A stretch of DNA of 64,000 nucleotides from Lachnospiraceae bacterium (GTDB lineage Bacteria > Bacillota > Clostridia > Lachnospirales > Lachnospiraceae). Position 1 is the first letter of the stretch. Each line of letters opens with the position of its first letter. Where the stretch lies: the NCBI GenBank assembly GCA_910574865.1, contig CAJTDN010000005.1:62001-126000 (forward strand). Reading direction: 5' to 3'. The position numbers were made by a program, and so were the translations under genes. The notes below the pieces were generated by a model. It was not told where the DNA came from. It did no database searches and saw only the letters and a program-made list of their open reading frames with translations. Positions 57,215-64,000 of this stretch are shown here, piece after piece.

Positions 57215-58387
57215 CTAAAATTCATATGTCCTGCGCGCGATTCCCAATTCCTCGTCGGTCGGGATCACACGGACGCAGACCGCGGAATCCGCCGTCGAAA
57301 TCACGCGCGCATTCTTTTCATTGGCCGCCTCGTCAAGCTTCACGCCGATTACCGAGAGCTTTTCGCACACCATGCGCCGAATCTGCGGGGAATGTTCCCC
57401 GATTCCCGCCGTAAACACCAAATCGTCAAGTCCGCCCAAATCCAGATAAAACGCGCCGATATAGTGGACAATCCCGTTCACGAACACGTCCACCGCCAGC
57501 CGTGCGCGCTCCTGCCCCTGCCCGGCCGCCTCCATCACGTAACGCAAATCGTTGCTCACGCCAGAAATGCCCAGCAGGCCGCCCCTCTTCTGGCAGCCTT
57601 CCAGGATTTCCTCCCGTGAAAGCCCCTCCTGCTCCAGGAAACAAATCATCGTCGGGTCCATGTCCCCCACCCGGTTGGCATGAATCAGGCCGGTTTCCAG
57701 AGACATCCCGAAGCTCGTGTCGACACTCTTACCGTTTAAAATGCCGCAGATGGACGCGCTGCCTCCCAGATGGCAGGAAATCGCCCGGTACTCTTTCTTC
57801 TCACTTCCCAGCACGTCCGCGATATAGCCGTGGGACGCACCGTGATATCCAAGACGCTGAATCCCATATTTCTCATACCATTCATACGGCACGCCATAGA
57901 TTTTGCGTTCCAGCGGGATGTCCCGGTGAAACGCCGTCTCAAACACGCCCACCAGCTTCGCGGCGGGCAAGGCTTCTTTCACGACCTCGATTGCTTTTAA
58001 ATATGCCGCATTATGGACGGGCGCGAGGGCGAACCATTCCCGCATCCCTTCCAGCGCCCCCTCGTCCAGTTCGTGGACGCCGAAATGCCCTTTCGAAAGC
58101 ACGGTCTTGAAGCCTACCCTCTCAATCTGCGAAACATCCTGCAGCACGGCTCCCTCGCCTTCCGTCAGTTCCTTTAAAAAGCGTTCGATGCCAACCCGGT
58201 AATCCGGGATGGACTGTTGCGCGAGTTCCACTTGGAAATCCGCGCCACAATTGCGGTACCCGAATACCGCGTCATCCGAAGACCCCACCCGCTCGACTTT
58301 GCCGGTCGCGAGCACCTTGCATTCCGGCATCTCGTAAAGTTTGAATTTCAGGGAAGTGCTCCCCGCATTGCATACCAATATTTTCAT
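57215..58387 (-). CDS. Acetate kinase-family protein with altered active site
   Basis: A 390-aa ASKHA-fold kinase from the ATG at 58387 (GAAGGGAGAAGCGGG upstream). It aligns end to end with acetate kinase: CNAGSTSLKFKLYE, ALAPVHN, FETAFH, GYHGASH, CHLGGSAS, DTSFG, FTAGIGEHS and PTDEELGIAR. Against Methanosarcina thermophila Ack, key positions differ: Arg91 to Lys (VGFKTV), Asp148 to Glu, Asn211 to Gly, Phe179 to Tyr, and the Pro232 region. His180, Arg241 and Glu384 are kept. It is the last gene of the FdrA/DUF1116 operon, so its acyl phosphate is probably not acetyl phosphate. Acetate/propionate kinase is the fallback call. Confidence 0.85.
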   Translation of the reverse strand: MKILVCNAGSTSLKFKLYEMPECKVLATGKVERVGSSDDAVFGYRNCGADFQVELAQQSIPDYRVGIERFLKELTEGEGAVLQDVSQIERVGFKTVLSKGHFGVHELDEGALEGMREWFALAPVHNAAYLKAIEVVKEALPAAKLVGVFETAFHRDIPLERKIYGVPYEWYEKYGIQRLGYHGASHGYIADVLGSEKKEYRAISCHLGGSASICGILNGKSVDTSFGMSLETGLIHANRVGDMDPTMICFLEQEGLSREEILEGCQKRGGLLGISGVSNDLRYVMEAAGQGQERARLAVDVFVNGIVHYIGAFYLDLGGLDDLVFTAGIGEHSPQIRRMVCEKLSVIGVKLDEAANEKNARVISTADSAVCVRVIPTDEELGIARRTYEF

Positions 58388-58417
58388 CCCGCTTCTCCCT
58401 TCATTTGTCATACTCAC

Positions 58418-58510
58418 GGTAACCGCGGCCGGTTAAGCCGTGAATTGTAACCATAATTCCTTATACGGCCGCGCACGGTATACGCCACGCTTCCCGTGCT
58501 GTTTATCCAC
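58418..58510. repeat. Hairpin pair between the FdrA C-terminal gene and the kinase gene
   Basis: On the minus strand: GCACGG/CCGTGC, then TCACGG-CT-TAACCG, loop GCCG, CGGTTA-CCGTGA. The 130-bp gap has no ORF. No T-run follows either hairpin. Confidence 0.5.
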
Positions 58511-58516
58511 GGTTCC

Positions 58517-58717
58517 TCAGTCCAAGCCGCCCAGCAAATCCAGAATCTCCTGCATTTCCTTGTCGCCCCCCGCGGCGGGCTTCCAGTCCACCTGAATCGC
58601 CTTGTACCCTTGTTTTTCCAACGCCGTCGCAAGAATTTTCGGCCCCACGTTTACCGTCACCAGTTCCGAGCGGAACAAGTTCAAAATTTTTTCACATCCC
58701 ACATTATTAGAGTTCAT
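58517..58717 (-). CDS. Stand-alone FdrA C-terminal domain protein
   Basis: A 66-aa protein: LNLFRSELVTVNVGPKILAT, KAIQVDWKPAAGGDKEMQEI. This matches the end of full-length FdrA proteins (a ...NxGL..F...G..V...W.P.AGG pattern), so here that domain is a separate gene. Its ATG overlaps the FdrA stop (ATGA), giving tight translational coupling. Combined with the 518-residue frame upstream, the pair approaches the length of one-piece FdrA (~555 aa in E. coli). Confidence 0.8.
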   Translation of the reverse strand: MNSNNVGCEKILNLFRSELVTVNVGPKILATALEKQGYKAIQVDWKPAAGGDKEMQEILDLLGGLD

Positions 58718-60264
58718 TCGTCCCTCTCCTTTTTCTGACGGATAATCTCACCGGCAAGCACCGCCGCCCGGTAATTACTCTGACATACAATCACGCCCGC
58801 CCCTTCAAGCTGCCGCCGCTGTTTGCAAAGATCCTGCAAATCCGCGGTCGTTCCGAGCACCGAGGCGATAAAAATCAAATGTCTGTTTTCCGCCTCGGCC
58901 ATCTCCTGCGCCATGCGGATATCGTCCAGCACGTATCCGGTCGGATCCATATGCCCCGGCGGCGTGAGAATAAAGTCTAATAGGATCACCGCCACCTCCG
59001 GATCCGCCGCCTCGCGCAAAATCTCAGGCTTGCGGATACTCGGGTCAATCGCCGGGTGCGGTCGTCCGAGAGTAAATTCCTCCTCGCCGTAATCCACGCA
59101 GCTATTCTCCACGCTTACATAAGAATCCTCCAGTTTCCATTCCGGTTTCAACGGGCAGTTCGACCAAATGGTTCCAATTCGATCCACCAGCGCGTTGCTC
59201 GCCTCATCCATATATGTACCGCCGGTGAACATTCCCCGCAGATATTTCTGCTCCGGCGAAAGTTTTTCCACTTCTTTCGCGGCCTGTTCCGCCAGTTCTT
59301 TCTCACTTGCGAACGGATAATTTACTCCAATCAACTCCAGGCATTTCTGTCCGCAGTCGTCCAGGCTGTCCGCATAAATGGCTCCGGCCGCCTCCACGTC
59401 CTTCCGGTCGCTTCCCATAAACAACGCCACCACCGGCTTCGTGCAGCGAGACACCCTCTCCAGTATCTTCGGAAACGTCTTCTCGCCCGGCTTCCTTGAA
59501 ATCAAGGCAATGTATTCCGTCTCCGGATCCGCTTCCAGCGCGTCAATCCCCATCAACATCATGATGCCGCCCACCGGATCCTTCAAATCATTTCCGCCCG
59601 TGCCAATCGTCTGGCTGACGCCGCTTCCCGCCTCGTGCAAGATTGCCGCCACATGTTGGATTCCCGTGCCGGACGCGCCGCAGATGCCGAACGGCCCCCT
59701 GTTGTTGATACTCGAAAGTACCAGCGCCGCGCCGTTGATATTGGCGACGCCGCAGTCCGGACCCATGCACAAAAGACCCTTTTCCCTCGCGAGTTCCTTC
59801 ATCTCCCGCTCCTGGTCAAGCGGCACGTTATTACTGAACACCACGCAATGCAATCCCGCGTTTAACGCCTTCTTTACTTCGCCCAGAGCATTTTCCCCCG
59901 GCACGGCGATGGAACACAAGTTTGCCTCCGGGTGCTTTAAAACGGCTGCCCGTGTGCTGACAAAATGCTCTTCCTCCGCCTGGTCTGGCTCTTCCGCGTC
60001 AAATGACGCATAAACCGCCCCTACCGCCGCTTCAAAGACCGCCATGTCCTCGCAACGCGCCACGATCACGAAATCATTGCCCGTGGCCATGTCAAGCTTC
60101 TGGCTATAGAGCCCTTCCGAGCGCAGCGTGTCCTTGAACGAATCGGCGGCGACCCCGACATAACCACTGTCCACGCCGGGCTGTTCCGCCAATATGGAAC
60201 TGGCATAGAGCGTTTCCAACGAATCCATATAGCGACCCGCTTCTATCTTTACAAATATATCCAT
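58714..60264 (-). CDS. fdrA: FdrA-family protein (succinyl-CoA synthetase alpha-like), lacking its C-terminal domain
   Basis: A 516-aa protein. CoA-ligase-type Rossmann region with GICGASGTGIQHVAAILHEA and QTIGTGGNDLKDPVGGI (His-phosphorylation loop region of succinyl-CoA synthetases), EYIALISRKPGEKTFPKIL, FMGSDRKDVEAAGAIYADSL, RKPEILREAADPEVAVILLD. In E. coli, FdrA with YlbE (DUF1116) and YlbF is reported as a carbamoyltransferase acting on oxamate. The ATG at 60264 is 8 bp after AGGAGG. DUF1116 is encoded upstream; YlbF and carbamate kinase are not in the window. Confidence 0.88.
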   Translation of the reverse strand: MDIFVKIEAGRYMDSLETLYASSILAEQPGVDSGYVGVAADSFKDTLRSEGLYSQKLDMATGNDFVIVARCEDMAVFEAAVGAVYASFDAEEPDQAEEEHFVSTRAAVLKHPEANLCSIAVPGENALGEVKKALNAGLHCVVFSNNVPLDQEREMKELAREKGLLCMGPDCGVANINGAALVLSSINNRGPFGICGASGTGIQHVAAILHEAGSGVSQTIGTGGNDLKDPVGGIMMLMGIDALEADPETEYIALISRKPGEKTFPKILERVSRCTKPVVALFMGSDRKDVEAAGAIYADSLDDCGQKCLELIGVNYPFASEKELAEQAAKEVEKLSPEQKYLRGMFTGGTYMDEASNALVDRIGTIWSNCPLKPEWKLEDSYVSVENSCVDYGEEEFTLGRPHPAIDPSIRKPEILREAADPEVAVILLDFILTPPGHMDPTGYVLDDIRMAQEMAEAENRHLIFIASVLGTTADLQDLCKQRRQLEGAGVIVCQSNYRAAVLAGEIIRQKKERDE

Positions 60265-60297
60265 GGTCAATCCCTCCTGTTCTCCCTAAAGAACTTT

Positions 60298-60492
60298 CCA
60301 ACTGTGCGGTTGCAATCCGATAACCGACTGGAATGCAATTTATTGCAGTGACAGCCGGTTATCGGATTAGCAACCCATCCCCCTAATGAGTAAAACACGG
60401 CTGCGTCAGCAGACGTAAGAGCGCGTAAGCGCGAGTTTTACGAATGTATGGATGGGTTGGATAATCTTTAGATTATCCAACCGCACAGCTGG
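60298..60492. repeat. Multi-arm palindromic element D2 (closed four-helix junction)
   Basis: Helix 1: 60298-60311 with 60479-60492 (13 of 14 pairs, CTGTGCGGTT core). Helix 2: AATCCGATAACCG (60314) with CGGTTATCGGATT (60356), plus inner TGCAAT-TT-ATTGCA. Helix 3: AACCCATCC (60372) with GGATGGGTT (60450), plus inner GTAAAAC/GTTTTAC. Helix 4: GGATAATC-TTTA-GATTATCC (60459-60478). Linkers between helices are 2, 3, 0 and 0 bases. It lies in the 304-bp gap between the DUF1116 and fdrA genes, which has no ORF. Confidence 0.8.
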
Positions 60493-60503
60493 AGAACTTT
60501 TGC

Positions 60504-60592
60504 CGGTTGCAATCCACGGCCGCTCAGCCCTGCCACCACAACCCTTTTCCGTCACGATTCACGGCCGCTCAGCCTTGTGAATCGCAACTTTT
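60504..60592. repeat. 46-bp imperfect tandem repeat at the DUF1116 gene end
   Basis: Two units share ACGGCCGCTCAGCC. Each is a hairpin: GGTTG/CAACC in the first and GATTCAC/GTGAATC in the second. The second unit's loop contains the DUF1116 stop codon, so part of the gene tail has been duplicated downstream. Confidence 0.6.
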
Positions 60593-61831
60593 TGCCTGCG
60601 CGTAAATGCCCCGCAACGCTTCTTTAAAGCACTCCATCGGCAGCTCTGCCGCCCCGGCGCCGCCTTGTCCGCCACTCCTTAAGGCACTGCCTCCATGGCT
60701 GATTGGCAGGATTTGGTATCCCACGACCTTGCGGGCGTCCACCCCGACCGGAAATCCTGCCATGTCCTCCCACGGCACCGGCGCGAACGTGTGCTCCCCG
60801 AGACTGACCGCGCGCGCCTTCTCCGTGCGGCTCCTCGCCTCGGCATAGTTCGAGCCGGTCAGGCGCATGTACGCCGGACCCGCGATGGCGGACATTCCCC
60901 CGAGTCCGTACACCTCCGTCACGCAGCTGTCGCCCAGATAGCCGACGAGGTCGGATTCCTTGTAGCTTGGCTTGAGGAACGTCCCCTTAATCTTCGGTGC
61001 TTTCGTGGTATACCACCGGTTGGCCGTGCCTGCCATCTGAACGCCAAATTCCTCGCCGTTTCCACCCATTCCTACCATGACGGTAGACAGTTCGATTCCC
61101 TTGCACTTCGCGGTCAGGCTTTCCACGCCCGCCATCATCACGTGAAGGAAAAACCGGTCGTTTGCAGCAAAATCCTTGATAATCTTATTTTTCTGCGGAT
61201 GGTCGATTTCCAGCAGATACGGAATTAGCTGCAGAGCCAGACACATTGAGGCCGCCGGCTGACGGTTGTGGTTCTCATCGCCCATCCCGGCCGTCTTCGA
61301 GAGGATCGTAATCAAATCCACGCCGCCGCTTGCCCGCACGGCCTGCGACAAGGCCGGACCGTAATCACTCCGAAACCAGCTTAAATCCGCCTCAACCTCC
61401 TCGTCATATAACCCCCAGCGCAGACATTTCGGATTCGGGCCGGGGTGGATTGGCGCGAACCCCTTCCCGCCGTACACCGAATCTTCCACCACGATTACCG
61501 GCATGCTCGCGGAGGTAACCATGCAGGCGGCATTGCCGCAGCTATAATTCTGGGAAGACGCCACCATAATCTTCCCTTCCTCCACCAGTTTCCACGCCTC
61601 TTCCTTCGTTTTCGCCAATCCCTCATGGATTGCCGCGCCGCAAATTGACGTACGCAGCGGCGGCGTAATCCGCTCCGTCTCAATGGACGGGCCGGGCATC
61701 AGAATGGTTTCCGGCGTCATGCCCGGAATCACTTCCAAGGCCGGACGCACGTCCACCCAGCGCGGACGGCCCTTGGTCAATATTTCCAACACCTGCCGGT
61801 TGGCTTCGTTTACACGTTCTTCTATCGTCAT
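60569..61831 (-). CDS. DUF1116 (YlbE/YahG-like) protein
   Basis: About 420 aa. Family features: ILTKGRPRWVDVRPALEVIP, LMPGPSIETERITPPLRTSI, ASSQNYSCGNAACMVTSASM, GDENHNRQPAAS, MVGMGGNGEEFGVQMAGTAN, VYGLGGMSAIAGPAYMRLTG. In E. coli the DUF1116 proteins YlbE and YahG sit beside FdrA homologues. Reported function there is oxamate carbamoyltransferase together with FdrA. The ATG at 61831 (after AAAGG) fits family N-termini; an in-frame GTG at 61876 is a weaker start. It is the first gene of the operon leading to fdrA and the variant kinase. Confidence 0.87.
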   Translation of the reverse strand: MTIEERVNEANRQVLEILTKGRPRWVDVRPALEVIPGMTPETILMPGPSIETERITPPLRTSICGAAIHEGLAKTKEEAWKLVEEGKIMVASSQNYSCGNAACMVTSASMPVIVVEDSVYGGKGFAPIHPGPNPKCLRWGLYDEEVEADLSWFRSDYGPALSQAVRASGGVDLITILSKTAGMGDENHNRQPAASMCLALQLIPYLLEIDHPQKNKIIKDFAANDRFFLHVMMAGVESLTAKCKGIELSTVMVGMGGNGEEFGVQMAGTANRWYTTKAPKIKGTFLKPSYKESDLVGYLGDSCVTEVYGLGGMSAIAGPAYMRLTGSNYAEARSRTEKARAVSLGEHTFAPVPWEDMAGFPVGVDARKVVGYQILPISHGGSALRSGGQGGAGAAELPMECFKEALRGIYAQAKSCDSQG

Positions 61832-61946: not shown

Positions 61947-62090
61947 AGGAAACGAACAAAATGCTTGCATTTTGATTCGTTTCCTGCGCCGGATGCACGC
62001 CGCAAAGCGACATATTTCCTATGTGCATCCTTGCGCATCCTCGCGGAGCGGTGTATAGTAAACGCATTTACTTAATGCGTTTACTATACA
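61947..62090. repeat. Palindromic repeat family B, copy 2 (three hairpins)
   Basis: Hairpins: AGGAAACGAA plus AAAATGC / GCATTTT plus TTCGTTTCCT (61947-61985); GCGC plus GGATGCAC / GTGCATCC plus GCGC around GCCGCAAAGCGACATATTTC (61986-62036); TGTATAGTAAACGCATT / AATGCGTTTACTATACA (62052-62090). The last contains the stop codon of the esterase gene. The middle hairpin matches 32472-32520 in loop and architecture but not in stem sequence. Confidence 0.72.
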
Positions 62091-63180
62091 GTGTCTCCGA
62101 CATCCACGCAATTCGCTGCCGGACCACTTCCTGAACGAACGGATTATCCACATCGGCGTCAAACCCGTGGTACGAACCGGAAATCTCGCGAAGCGTCACG
62201 TCCACTCCCGCCTCCGTCAGACGCCGCGCGTAGGTTGCCGCCTCATCGTGCAAGATGTCCATCTCCTGCGGTTCGATATAGGTTTTCGGAAGGCCGCCAA
62301 CATCCGCCGTCCTCATCGGAACCAGAAATTCCTCGTCCGCCGAAACGGCTTTTAAGTATTCCCGCCACATGGCGAGGTTATTTTTCAACGGCCATGCGGC
62401 CTCGCTGTACGTTCTGGCAGACGGGTATCGGCCGCACCGGTTGTCAAGCGCCGGGTAAACAAGCATCTGCCCTGCCGGGAAATGGTTCGATTTCACATCC
62501 GAGCCAGCGCGGGCGGAACATTTTTTCTGTTCCCGCGCCCACAGCGCGATTCCCGCCGCAAGCGTCCCCCCGGCACTTTCCCCATACAAGAGAATCCTAT
62601 CCGGGTCAATGCGAAGACTCCTTGCATGCATTTCCAGAAAACACCATGCATCCTGACAATCCCAAAGAGGCACGGGTGCCGGATGCTCCGGCAGAAAGCG
62701 GTATTCTGGCAGAAACACCTTCATCTTTAACTCCAGCGTGTACCGTGCCGCCAGCTGCATCATCATTAGCTGGATGGGGAGAAAGAAACCGCCGCCATGG
62801 CAATAAAGCATTGCGGGCGTTCCCTTTCCCGTTTCTTTTTCTGTTTCTTCCGCCCCAGACACGAAGCATCCCGTTTCTTTTCTCGTTTCATTTTCTTCCG
62901 GCTCAAACACGAAACATTCCATCTCCTGGCCGTCACGCAGCGAGATTTTGACCGTTCGAACCACCACGCCGGAAGGCGGCGCAAACTCCCGGTTCTGCCT
63001 CTGCAATGTCTGTATCATCACCCGCAAGGCGGGCACAAGCTTCGGATTGCCAAAATCCAGCCCCGTCCATTTGCCCGGGCCTTTTAGTTCCCGGCGGTAT
63101 CCCCGTCCGGGCATCCCGCCTCTGACGTGCTTCGCGCCAGCGGACTCCCCGGGCCCGTTAACGTCTGCCAACACACACAT
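62068..63180 (-). CDS. Alpha/beta-hydrolase-3 (HSL-type) esterase
   Basis: A 370-aa hydrolase of the hormone-sensitive-lipase group: LYCHGGGFFLP (oxyanion HGGG), LLYGESAGGTLAAG (nucleophile GxSxG), EMDILHDEAATYARRL (acid region), GSYHGFDADVDNPF (catalytic His). An insert of charged residues (~110-140; ETRKETGCFVSG) interrupts the strand before HGGG. Cytoplasmic; removes short acyl esters, possibly from glycans or xenobiotics. The ATG follows AGGAGGTGACGGC. It is 12 bp downstream of the glycosidase-like gene, so the two are co-transcribed. Confidence 0.9.
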   Translation of the reverse strand: MCVLADVNGPGESAGAKHVRGGMPGRGYRRELKGPGKWTGLDFGNPKLVPALRVMIQTLQRQNREFAPPSGVVVRTVKISLRDGQEMECFVFEPEENETRKETGCFVSGAEETEKETGKGTPAMLYCHGGGFFLPIQLMMMQLAARYTLELKMKVFLPEYRFLPEHPAPVPLWDCQDAWCFLEMHARSLRIDPDRILLYGESAGGTLAAGIALWAREQKKCSARAGSDVKSNHFPAGQMLVYPALDNRCGRYPSARTYSEAAWPLKNNLAMWREYLKAVSADEEFLVPMRTADVGGLPKTYIEPQEMDILHDEAATYARRLTEAGVDVTLREISGSYHGFDADVDNPFVQEVVRQRIAWMSETLYSKRIK

Positions 63181-63191
63181 GCCGTCACCTC

Positions 63192-64000
63192 CTAAAGCAG
63201 GATAATTTCATAGGCCTCCAGCCGGTCCAGGGTCACGATTCGCTCCGTCTTTGTCCTTCGCACGGTGGCCGTCCCCCCGTTATAGGCTTTTGCCTCTGCC
63301 GCCGTATCGCCGAACTGTTTCTCTTCCGTTTCTCCCGCGTTGTCAAGCGGCAGGTGAAGTTCAATCCCGTACACCGGAAGCGGTTCAAAAAAGCTGTTGG
63401 AAAAGACGCCCGACGTGTTGATCAATTGCAGGACCGTCTGATTTCCTTTCTTCCCGACCAGCACTTCCACCATCGGAGTCAGGTCCGGCGCGATCTGCCT
63501 TGCCCCGCATACATTACAAAGCACGTCCTGCATCACTTGGAACGTATTCTGGTATCCTTCCTCATAGTAGAACGTCCCCGCCAGCCATGGCAGATACACG
63601 CCCTTCCCCTTTCCGTACGGAAATGCCGTCACGCCCGGATGCCCCGTCACGTCCGCGTCCGTGTAATAGCAGATTTCCGGCGGGCCGTACGGATGCTCGC
63701 CGACCAGGTTCAGGTATTTTTGCGTCCCCTCCTCAAACTCCGCCATCACAAGATTTTCGCCGAACGGGATGAGCGACGCTTCCATACAATGCGGGAATGC
63801 CTCCCGGTCTTTTTCCTCTACCATGAACACGGAAGAGCGAAGATTCGCTCTCTTTTCCTGTATCCGCTTGATTCCCATGCACTTAAGCGGGAACGGCGCG
63901 GAAGGATTCTGCATCGCCGACATCAGCGCGGTATCTCCGGTCACAAGTACGACGCCGCCGTTTTCGGCGAACGCGTCCAAAACCTGTGCCTGCTGATCGT
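63192..64000 (-). CDS. C-terminal part of a glycoside-hydrolase-like protein
   Basis: Only the last ~269 codons are in the window; the frame is open to the right edge. DQQAQVLDAFAENGGVVLVT and EICYYTDADVTGHPGVTAFP resemble the beta-galactosidase trimerisation-like (glutamine amidotransferase-fold) domain, followed by a beta-rich C-terminal domain with LTPMVEVLVGKKGNQTVLQL and INTSG, as in clostridial enzymes of the alpha-amylase/hypothetical glycosyl hydrolase 6 group. The catalytic domain is outside the window, so substrate cannot be given. Confidence 0.7.
   Translation of the reverse strand, partial: DQQAQVLDAFAENGGVVLVTGDTALMSAMQNPSAPFPLKCMGIKRIQEKRANLRSSVFMVEEKDREAFPHCMEASLIPFGENLVMAEFEEGTQKYLNLVGEHPYGPPEICYYTDADVTGHPGVTAFPYGKGKGVYLPWLAGTFYYEEGYQNTFQVMQDVLCNVCGARQIAPDLTPMVEVLVGKKGNQTVLQLINTSGVFSNSFFEPLPVYGIELHLPLDNAGETEEKQFGDTAAEAKAYNGGTATVRRTKTERIVTLDRLEAYEIILL

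Follow-up and report, generated by a model that had tools for sequence, protein, structure and literature searches.

An operon pairing FdrA and AllG homologues with an acetokinase-family kinase may release a non-carbamoyl acyl phosphate

Introduction

Which phosphorylated compound would be produced by an operon that joins relatives of a transcarbamylase to a relative of acetate kinase? Such an operon is present in a Lachnospiraceae bacterium, near the end of the 64,000-nucleotide stretch of DNA analyzed here (the window). In E. coli, according to PMC11326118, the oxamic transcarbamylase AllFGH works with the carbamate kinase AllK, its activity requires three genes, and the transcarbamylase containing FdrA was assayed with carbamoyl phosphate and oxamate. 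A first-pass annotation of the window proposed that FdrA and the DUF1116 protein (AllG) release an acyl or carbamoyl phosphate that the kinase converts to ATP.

Results

The first-pass annotation listed AllG/DUF1116, a split FdrA and an acetate-kinase homologue, and we confirmed each of these genes at its place on the minus strand. AllG, of the kinase-linked type, occupies 60569..61831 (best start ATG at 61831, stop at 60569; PF06545, E 1.4e-60). The FdrA/AllF subunit, which has a succinyl-CoA-synthetase-like fold and no C-terminal domain, occupies 58714..60264 (ATG at 60264; tool-listed start TTG at 60270; PF00549), and its stop is overlapped by the start of the split C-terminal domain of 66 amino acids (58517..58717). 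The variant acetokinase-family kinase lies at 57215..58387 (ATG at 58387; tool-listed from GTG at 58417; PF00871, E 3.1e-99). On the same strand, an alpha/beta hydrolase gene (Abhydrolase_3, PF07859) is found at 62068..63180, and the C-terminal part of a GHL6 glycosidase-like protein at 63192..64000, with its gene start beyond the window end; a relative carries the complete GHL6 gene (L037:10193-12250; PF14871, E 5.3e-33). The AllG and FdrA genes are about 300 bp apart in the window, and in window-group relatives they are within about 20 bp of each other or overlap. This unusually wide gap is the site of a palindromic MITE-like element (60297..60493, no strand assigned) with 16-nt outer inverted repeats (94%) and two inner ones.

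We examined FdrA and its split piece by profile and structure comparison. The window FdrA matched the solved FdrA 3dmy with E 1.2e-60 and scored 367 bits against NF004760 ("acyl-CoA synthetase FdrA"), below the cut-off of 433. The 66-residue piece aligned with residues 511-553 of E. coli FdrA and residues 430-475 of 3dmy (E 0.019), and it is also similar to the N-terminus of AllG in two loci (L032 and L188). The database name and the succinyl-CoA-synthetase fold would together suggest that FdrA makes or uses an acyl-CoA and that the kinase acts on the corresponding acyl phosphate. Alignment to 2yv1, however, places an Ala in the window FdrA opposite the His of the succinyl-CoA synthetase alpha chain, which we take to be the catalytic phospho-acceptor, and this weakens the acyl-CoA reading. 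AllG would also have no obvious place in it, and E. coli FdrA is described in PMC11326118 as part of a transcarbamylase. We consider an acyl-CoA synthetase role very improbable.

The window AllG, for which 3clq is a solved homologue, is 30.5% identical to E. coli AllG. In a tree of 65 of the 80 AllG rows (15 near-identical or partial rows were removed, and the partial matches L027 (= L036), L028, L185 and L186 were set aside), a single branch with support of 100/99 separated all 29 kinase-linked rows and L187 from 35 ureide, cyclase and other rows. Switched positions were located by comparing 27 kinase-side with 28 other rows, omitting 3 and 7, and were tabulated over all 65 tree rows and E. 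coli. At positions 117, 191, 257, 315, 379 and 380 (numbered from ATG 61831), E. coli and 32 of the 35 rows on the other side of the branch, where the carbamate-kinase rows fall, have NNRMNT, which in the window is replaced by D117, Q191, G257, A315, H379 and G380. Judged by eye, the solved homologue 3clq has the residues of the carbamoyl side. DQGAHG is found in 24 of the 29 kinase-linked rows, and the remaining five deviate at one place each. D at 117 is not exclusive, as it occurs in 2 of the 35 other-side rows, and one other-side row reads NNRLTT. L187, whose contig ends beside AllG, has a mixed signature (DQGSNG). A seventh position, 395 (V/A), also passed in the 27 versus 28 row comparison. 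Q191, G257 and G380 are each adjacent to an invariant residue. FdrA showed only two comparable switches.

The kinase scored 336 bits against TIGR00016, above the cut-off. Mapping on 1tuu showed that the active-site residues Arg91 and Asp148 of AckA are both replaced, by K94 and E150, and that V124, G209 and L230 stand for L122, N211 and P232. Lys and Glu at the two active-site positions were found in 83/83 clade kinases, the window's included, and Arg and Asp were retained in all 16 AckA controls. In a kinase tree of 88 of 113 rows (25 mostly near-identical or partial rows were removed), the window-type clade stood apart from AckA. FdrA-linked and unlinked kinases were intermixed in this tree, with 9-10 label changes, two labels being wrong: L082 is called FdrA-linked through a weak succinyl-CoA-synthetase match, and L040_5, entered as an unlinked kinase, is its genome's AckA. 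Strict dedication of the kinase to FdrA was rejected on account of this interspersion.

We then compared the pairing from both sides. The kinase was found within 8 kb of AllG in 40 of 80 AllG rows, carbamate kinase in 17 and both in none; since 31 of the 40 had been found via the kinase, the unbiased figure is the remaining nine. The co-occurrence that the first-pass annotation proposed to look for was borne out on the AllG side: in AllG surveys that did not start from the kinase, it lay beside 9 of 11 full-length, low-scoring (window-type) AllG loci, and the other two loci are at contig ends. From the kinase side, no FdrA/AllG piece was present on the fetched stretch in 45 of the 80 named-genome kinase loci, which are the best 80 matches of the scan, and 25 of these 45 are flanked by 5 kb or more of sequence in each direction. 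Among the matches listed, 11 genomes have a typical kinase, and 7 of them lack window-type AllG; five further genomes with the pair carry divergent kinases below the strict kinase profile, and with these counted in, both genes occur in 9 of 16. The broad clade is thus mostly without fdrA among the best-listed loci, which the first-pass annotation had named as evidence against its proposal, but the window's own subclade is FdrA-linked in 18 of 21 tree rows. Taken together, the clade counts and the AllG-survey counts show that the clade as a whole does not serve FdrA exclusively, yet FdrA/AllG of the window type regularly comes with this kinase.

In L070 and L071, kinases of the clade lie next to glycerate kinases that belong to two distinct Pfam families. 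One FdrA-less member of the clade stands before two glgC-like genes. Three FdrA-less members adjoin AllH (L087, L090 and L093, with L090 also near an AllD-like gene), which is readable as a ureide link. The frequent FdrA-less loci, such as the one before the glgC-like genes, would suit an operon that combines two unrelated functions, the kinase being an ordinary acetate or propionate kinase and FdrA/AllG having a separate role. This explanation appears quite unlikely, given that the pair is kept in 9/9 survey AllG loci that are not contig-cut, across deep divergence and several gene orders, that the active-site residues of the kinase are altered, and that the genome has its own acetate kinase (534 bits, C3:228577). 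The ORF beside the latter is phosphate acetyltransferase-like, as judged by eye.

Carbamate kinase and AllH were searched for across the genome. The lack of arcC reported by the first-pass annotation holds for the operon and not for the genome, which has one carbamate kinase above the arcC cut-off (G000:C2:306052) and a weaker second match (C1:246904). The absence of YlbF/AllH from the window, also reported there, extends further: AllH (PF11392) was not found in a search of the whole genome, which is 96.4% complete, so its absence is not confined to the window, and no hidden copy turned up elsewhere. Three sister-group operons examined have AllH by Pfam.

Neighboring genes were labeled with small custom HMMs and single-sequence searches, with a Pfam/NCBIfam check on chosen examples only. 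The 32 loci of the window group, among them near-duplicates and short contigs, contained tartronate-semialdehyde reductase (TSR) in 15, glycerate 2-kinase in 12 and GHL6 in 22, and an HMM of the alpha/beta hydrolase family found it in 27, the window and its near-duplicates included. AllC, AllD, AllE, AllH, ArcC and PucR were found in 0/32 of these loci, and IlvD-type dehydratase likewise in 0/32 stretches; a mannonate-dehydratase-like gene (named by eye) lies several kb away in L066, L067 and L118. Near the 13 sister-group AllG loci were an IlvD-type dehydratase (10), an SDR (10), a fumarate-reductase-like flavoprotein (10) and a KDPG-type aldolase (8). No MOFRL-type glycerate kinase was found in the window genome, which elsewhere contains a PF02595-type glycerate kinase and two TSR genes. 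Of 10 genomes with the window AllG type, some of them fragmented, 7 gave no match to the FAH family (PF01557) and three have it on other contigs; hydrolytic Route III was rejected for these organisms on these counts.

Acetate kinases are able to use carbamoyl phosphate. The operon could thus encode an ordinary ureide enzyme, in which carbamoyl phosphate is still the product of FdrA/AllG and the role of carbamate kinase has passed to the acetokinase relative. Clear homology to AllFG, the Pfam name of the AllG family (oxamate carbamoyltransferase subunit), the carbamate kinase elsewhere in the genome and the FdrA-less kinases adjoining AllH, one of them near an AllD-like gene, are all consistent with this. 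Within the same bacterial family, however, carbamate kinase is present on the fetched stretch in 12 of 14 FdrA-AllG fusion loci, AllC, AllD, AllE, ArcC and PucR were found in none of the window-group loci, and AllG is changed at positions that E. coli and most other-side rows conserve. In view of the altered AllG and of the failure to find ureide genes next to the operons, plain arcC replacement was dropped as first choice, and we regard it as unlikely.

Discussion

We favor, at a probability of roughly 0.6, a reading in which FdrA, its split piece and AllG form a phosphorolytic acyltransferase that acts on a sugar-derived acid and sets free an acyl phosphate other than carbamoyl phosphate, with ATP made by the kinase. 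The complex would be related to the E. coli oxamic transcarbamylase and act on another substrate, cleaving the acid with inorganic phosphate; the kinase would then use the acyl phosphate and ADP to form ATP and a carboxylate, probably a hydroxycarboxylate such as glycerate. Gene order, clade split, residue changes and the context of relatives are observed; the chemistry, the non-carbamoyl product and the kinase direction are inferred. A set altered at conserved sites, an altered acetate-kinase relative and sugar-type neighbors together suggest a probably different, carbon-based acyl phosphate. The type of kinase, the signature of AllG and the neighboring genes switch together, which favors a non-carbamoyl product, although these changes coincide with a single branch and are therefore not independent replicates. 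The first-pass proposal of an acyl or carbamoyl phosphate feeding ATP synthesis thus fits the findings in its acyl form, and its carbamoyl form is disfavored by the same three features. Points against the proposed function are the FdrA-less kinases (45/80 best-listed loci), AllH, required in E. coli yet not found here, and the lack of an IlvD-type dehydratase on the window-group stretches and of a MOFRL-type glycerate kinase in the window genome.

The simplest guess for the substrate would be a 2,4-diketo-3-deoxy acid, which is the carbon analogue of oxalurate and would be split into pyruvate and a hydroxyacyl phosphate. As a possible but tentative extension, FdrA/AllG (with AllH in the sister group) may use phosphate to cleave the C-C bond in 2,4-diketo-3-deoxy sugar acids, yielding pyruvate and glyceroyl, lactoyl or glycoloyl phosphate, from which the kinase clade would make ATP; this would be a new form of substrate-level phosphorylation that saves as ATP the energy lost by FAH-type hydrolases. 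A point against is the aldolase in sister operons, which could consume the same keto-deoxy acid.

No report of the FdrA/AllG-kinase pairing was found in the open-access literature, among the matches listed. If the proposal is true, the "oxamate carbamoyltransferase" Pfam family includes a second functional class, in anaerobic bacteria and with a different substrate, so that automatic annotation mislabels family members. The module would add a new ATP-forming reaction to the breakdown of sugars or sugar acids. Phosphorolysis of a carbon analogue of oxalurate would be a type of reaction new to the fold, and the kinase clade, in which the R91K/D148E pair is fixed, would bring a new substrate class to a textbook family of enzymes. 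Since the proteins resemble ordinary soluble families, the idea is directly testable in vitro.

Among known systems, AllFGH/AllK, as described in PMC11326118, is similar in its homologous FdrA and AllG subunits and in an operon with a kinase for a putative acyl-type phosphate. The window system differs in that AllH was not found, FdrA is split, the AllG signature is changed, the kinase has the acetokinase fold, and no ureide genes were found adjacent. AckA (1tuu) and the propionate kinases belong to the same family as the window kinase and align over its whole length, whereas the latter differs by R91K, D148E, N211G, L122V and P232L and falls in a separate clade. The glycerate branch (TSR and glycerate kinase) is shared with part of the window-group operons, at the frequencies given above, but its genes here accompany FdrA/AllG and an acyl kinase, with no allantoin genes alongside. 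The non-phosphorylative Route III sugar-acid pathway, as presented in PMC6336799, employs dehydratase and SDR dehydrogenase families that are also found beside sister FdrA/AllG/kinase operons; its last step is hydrolysis by an FAH-family enzyme, whereas phosphorolysis is proposed for FdrA/AllG.

The operon and its genome

The operon lies on the minus strand (57215-61831) and comprises four genes, encoding in order AllG (the DUF1116 subunit), FdrA (AllF), a 66-aa FdrA C-terminal piece and an acetokinase-family kinase, hereafter the kinase. The same strand carries, further upstream, an alpha/beta hydrolase gene (62068-63180) and a GHL6 glycosidase-like gene whose start lies past the window end. 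The first-pass annotation had described FdrA as split, which was borne out by alignment of the small ORF with residues 511-553 of E. coli FdrA; this piece also matched the C terminus of the solved FdrA 3dmy (E 0.019) and is fused onto the AllG N terminus in two relatives (L032 and L188). Between AllG and FdrA lies a MITE-like palindromic element (60297-60493) with outer inverted repeats of 16 nt, and among 238 loci a 45-base stretch of it found exact matches only in the two that derive from this same location. After the operon, a ParB-like short ORF of 118 aa (PF02195, 56665-57021) looks like a fragment.

The annotation had also held that carbamate kinase (ArcC) is absent, which stands for the operon but not for the genome, where the gene occurs elsewhere. 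AllH (YlbF/DUF2877) is indeed missing from the window, as had been stated, and was not found by whole-genome search either. A normal acetate kinase (AckA) is present elsewhere in the genome, as is a PF02595 glycerate kinase.

Occurrence of AllG and the kinase

AllG was detected in 18 of 299 genomes of the window's family. Three of these (the window genome, G139 and G211) carry a low-scoring AllG (195-207 bits), and the other 15 yielded 14 loci with an FdrA-AllG fusion of ~1000 aa, 12 of which have carbamate kinase on the stretch, mostly with the ureide genes AllC, AllD or AllE. Kinase profile A2 matched 7 of the 299 genomes at scores of at least 592 bits (next match, 449.5), three being exactly those with low-scoring AllG and four being without AllG. 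Across 391 genomes sampled class-wide, 24 had AllG and 5 had the kinase at a strict threshold that overlooks divergent kinases, whose scores overlap the AckA range. Pooling the two AllG surveys gave 11 loci with a full-length AllG of low score (187-229 bits; next score, 268), nine of which have an acetokinase-family gene nearby (G000, the window genome; G139, G211, G606, G410, G349, G471, G339 and G310:C13); the remaining two (L187 and L193) are at contig ends.

A contig profile scan placed the best 80 kinase loci in Oscillospiraceae, Lachnospiraceae, Erysipelotrichaceae, other Bacillota, one Sphaerochaeta and one Latescibacteria. Since FdrA, AllG or the small piece is present on just 35 of these 80, the kinase clade is broader than its FdrA association; for 25 of the remaining 45, the stretch extends at least 5 kb to both sides of the kinase. 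The finding of FdrA/AllG with this kinase type is real and beyond chance, and a chance operon, in which kinase and FdrA/AllG genes adjoin by accident, is unlikely.

Two FdrA-less kinases (L070 and L071) adjoin glycerate kinases from two different Pfam families. Other settings were also seen, some assigned by eye. At L195 and L197, FdrA-less on the stretch, the kinase stands in a run with a split altronate-dehydratase-type pair, LarA-like and HMGL-like genes and a LIV-type ABC transporter, and the FdrA-less kinase of L092 adjoins LrgAB-like genes (by eye). AllH directly follows the kinase at L087, L090 and L093, where FdrA/AllG was not found on the stretch; L090 has an AllD-like gene upstream as well. 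In several Clostridia (L104, L106-L109, L111 and L114), the kinase occurs in a stand-alone form directly ahead of two glgC-like genes.

Kinase residues

When the window kinase was aligned with the Methanosarcina acetate kinase 1tuu, R91 proved to be replaced by Lys, D148 by Glu, L122 by Val, N211 by Gly and P232 by Leu. The acetate pocket of the Methanosarcina enzyme consists of V93, L122, F179 and P232 in the available portion of one report (PMC5517563), and the part seen of another assigns the R91 and D148 equivalents to nucleotide and metal binding (PMC3475010). Lys and Glu were common to 83 of 83 kinases among the matches listed, the window's included; Arg and Asp were kept in 16 of 16 acetate kinases. 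Five of the nine kinases near low-scoring AllG are divergent (360-420 bits against the kinase HMM) and have the same Lys/Glu pair. The kinase clade was separated from AckA (SH-aLRT 100), with FdrA-linked and unlinked members mixed within it.

Two kinds of AllG

Within 8 kb of 80 AllG rows, we found the kinase in 40 (31 of which had been located via the kinase), carbamate kinase in 17, neither in 23 and both in none. That the product is carbamoyl phosphate, with the kinase as a substitute for carbamate kinase, is unlikely. A tree of 65 AllG rows has a branch (support 100/99) that separates all 29 kinase-linked rows and L187 from the 35 others. Six conserved positions change along this divide: E. 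coli and 32 of the 35 other-side rows have N117, N191, R257, M315, N379 and T380, where the kinase side has D, Q, G, A, H and G. All six kinase-side residues occur in the window AllG and in 24 of the 29 kinase-linked rows, five deviating at one position; the exceptions are D117 in two other-side rows, NNRLTT in one, and L187, which is mixed (DQGSNG). A seventh position, 395 (V/A), likewise passed the filter. FdrA has only two such switches, S185/N and E395/D (26 versus 25 rows). This distribution of residues suggests that AllG is the seat of substrate choice. The traits that follow the AllG split are one evolutionary change, so their agreement counts as a single concerted shift and no more. 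CoA chemistry is improbable; in the window FdrA, Ala stands where succinyl-CoA synthetase has its catalytic His.

A third context was observed in 14 loci (L033, L204, L205, L217-L220, L222, L223, L225-L228 and L231), with FdrA, AllG and often AllH and PucR adjoining a cyclase-type gene, for which PF04199 was checked in a single locus, L033; in 13 of the 14, neither carbamate kinase nor the kinase lies within 8 kb. In two genomes (L034 and L035), AllG is duplicated with a transporter between the copies, and FdrA and the small piece are separate; L034 has an amidase nearby, and L035 carries carbamate kinase and, besides these genes, an FdrA-AllG fusion.

Gene neighbourhoods

Kinase-linked AllG loci formed a window group and a sister group. 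The 13 sister-group AllG loci contain an IlvD-type dehydratase (10), SDR (10), a fumarate-reductase-like flavoprotein (10) and a KDPG-type aldolase (8), and AllH was present in 3 of 3 examples examined by Pfam. L094 has a galactarate/altronate-dehydratase-type protein instead, and L091 has a rhamnose-mutarotase-like gene. The window group, whose 32 loci include the window, near-duplicates and short contigs, has alpha/beta hydrolase (27), GHL6 (22), AraC (17), 2-hydroxyacid dehydrogenase (16), tartronate-semialdehyde reductase (TSR; 15) and glycerate 2-kinase (12); AllH, ArcC, AllC, AllD, AllE, PucR and IlvD were found in 0 of the 32. By library search, one TSR example exceeded its cut-off and one glycerate 2-kinase example matched NF040791/NF041176 below both cut-offs, with DUF4147 and MOFRL by Pfam.

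The window genome has a TSR gene of the window-group type away from the operon, with an AraC regulator and an MFS transporter that are likewise group-type (L236). A second TSR gene (L235, G000:C9:66000-82000) adjoins transketolase halves, an SDR gene and, by eye, a gene for an enolase-superfamily-dehydratase-like protein, a set that is possibly another sugar-acid pathway.

A candidate reaction and its known relatives

Oxalurate is HOOC-CO-NH-CO-NH2, and by analogy its carbon counterpart would be a 2,4-diketo acid, HOOC-CO-CH2-CO-R. E. coli AllFGH interconverts oxalurate plus phosphate with oxamate plus carbamoyl phosphate, as described in the accessible part of PMC11326118. Phosphorolysis of a 2,4-diketo acid would yield pyruvate and a hydroxyacyl phosphate, from which the kinase would form ATP and a hydroxyacid; glycerate kinase would fit where the hydroxyacid is glycerate. 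This candidate is the boldest reading, and it would account jointly for the gene context, the kinase type and the AllG changes. Against diketo-acid phosphorolysis stand, as weak points, the lack of an IlvD-type dehydratase in window-group operons and the aldolase also present in sister operons.

Within the FdrA/AllG family, the window type forms a class of its own that comes with its own type of kinase; no description of this class was found in the literature searched, and it offers a concrete, putative path to a novel reaction. Of 10 genomes with kinase-type AllG, 7 gave no match to PF01557 (FAH family), and in the other three the match lies on a different contig. In Route III sugar-acid breakdown, as given in the portion of PMC6336799 available, the proposed intermediates are 2,4-diketo acids, not directly identified there, which would arise by way of a dehydratase and an SDR dehydrogenase; an FAH/MhpD-type hydrolase then releases pyruvate and glycolate or lactate. 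The dehydratase and SDR dehydrogenase types of Route III are also carried by the sister FdrA/AllG/kinase operons.
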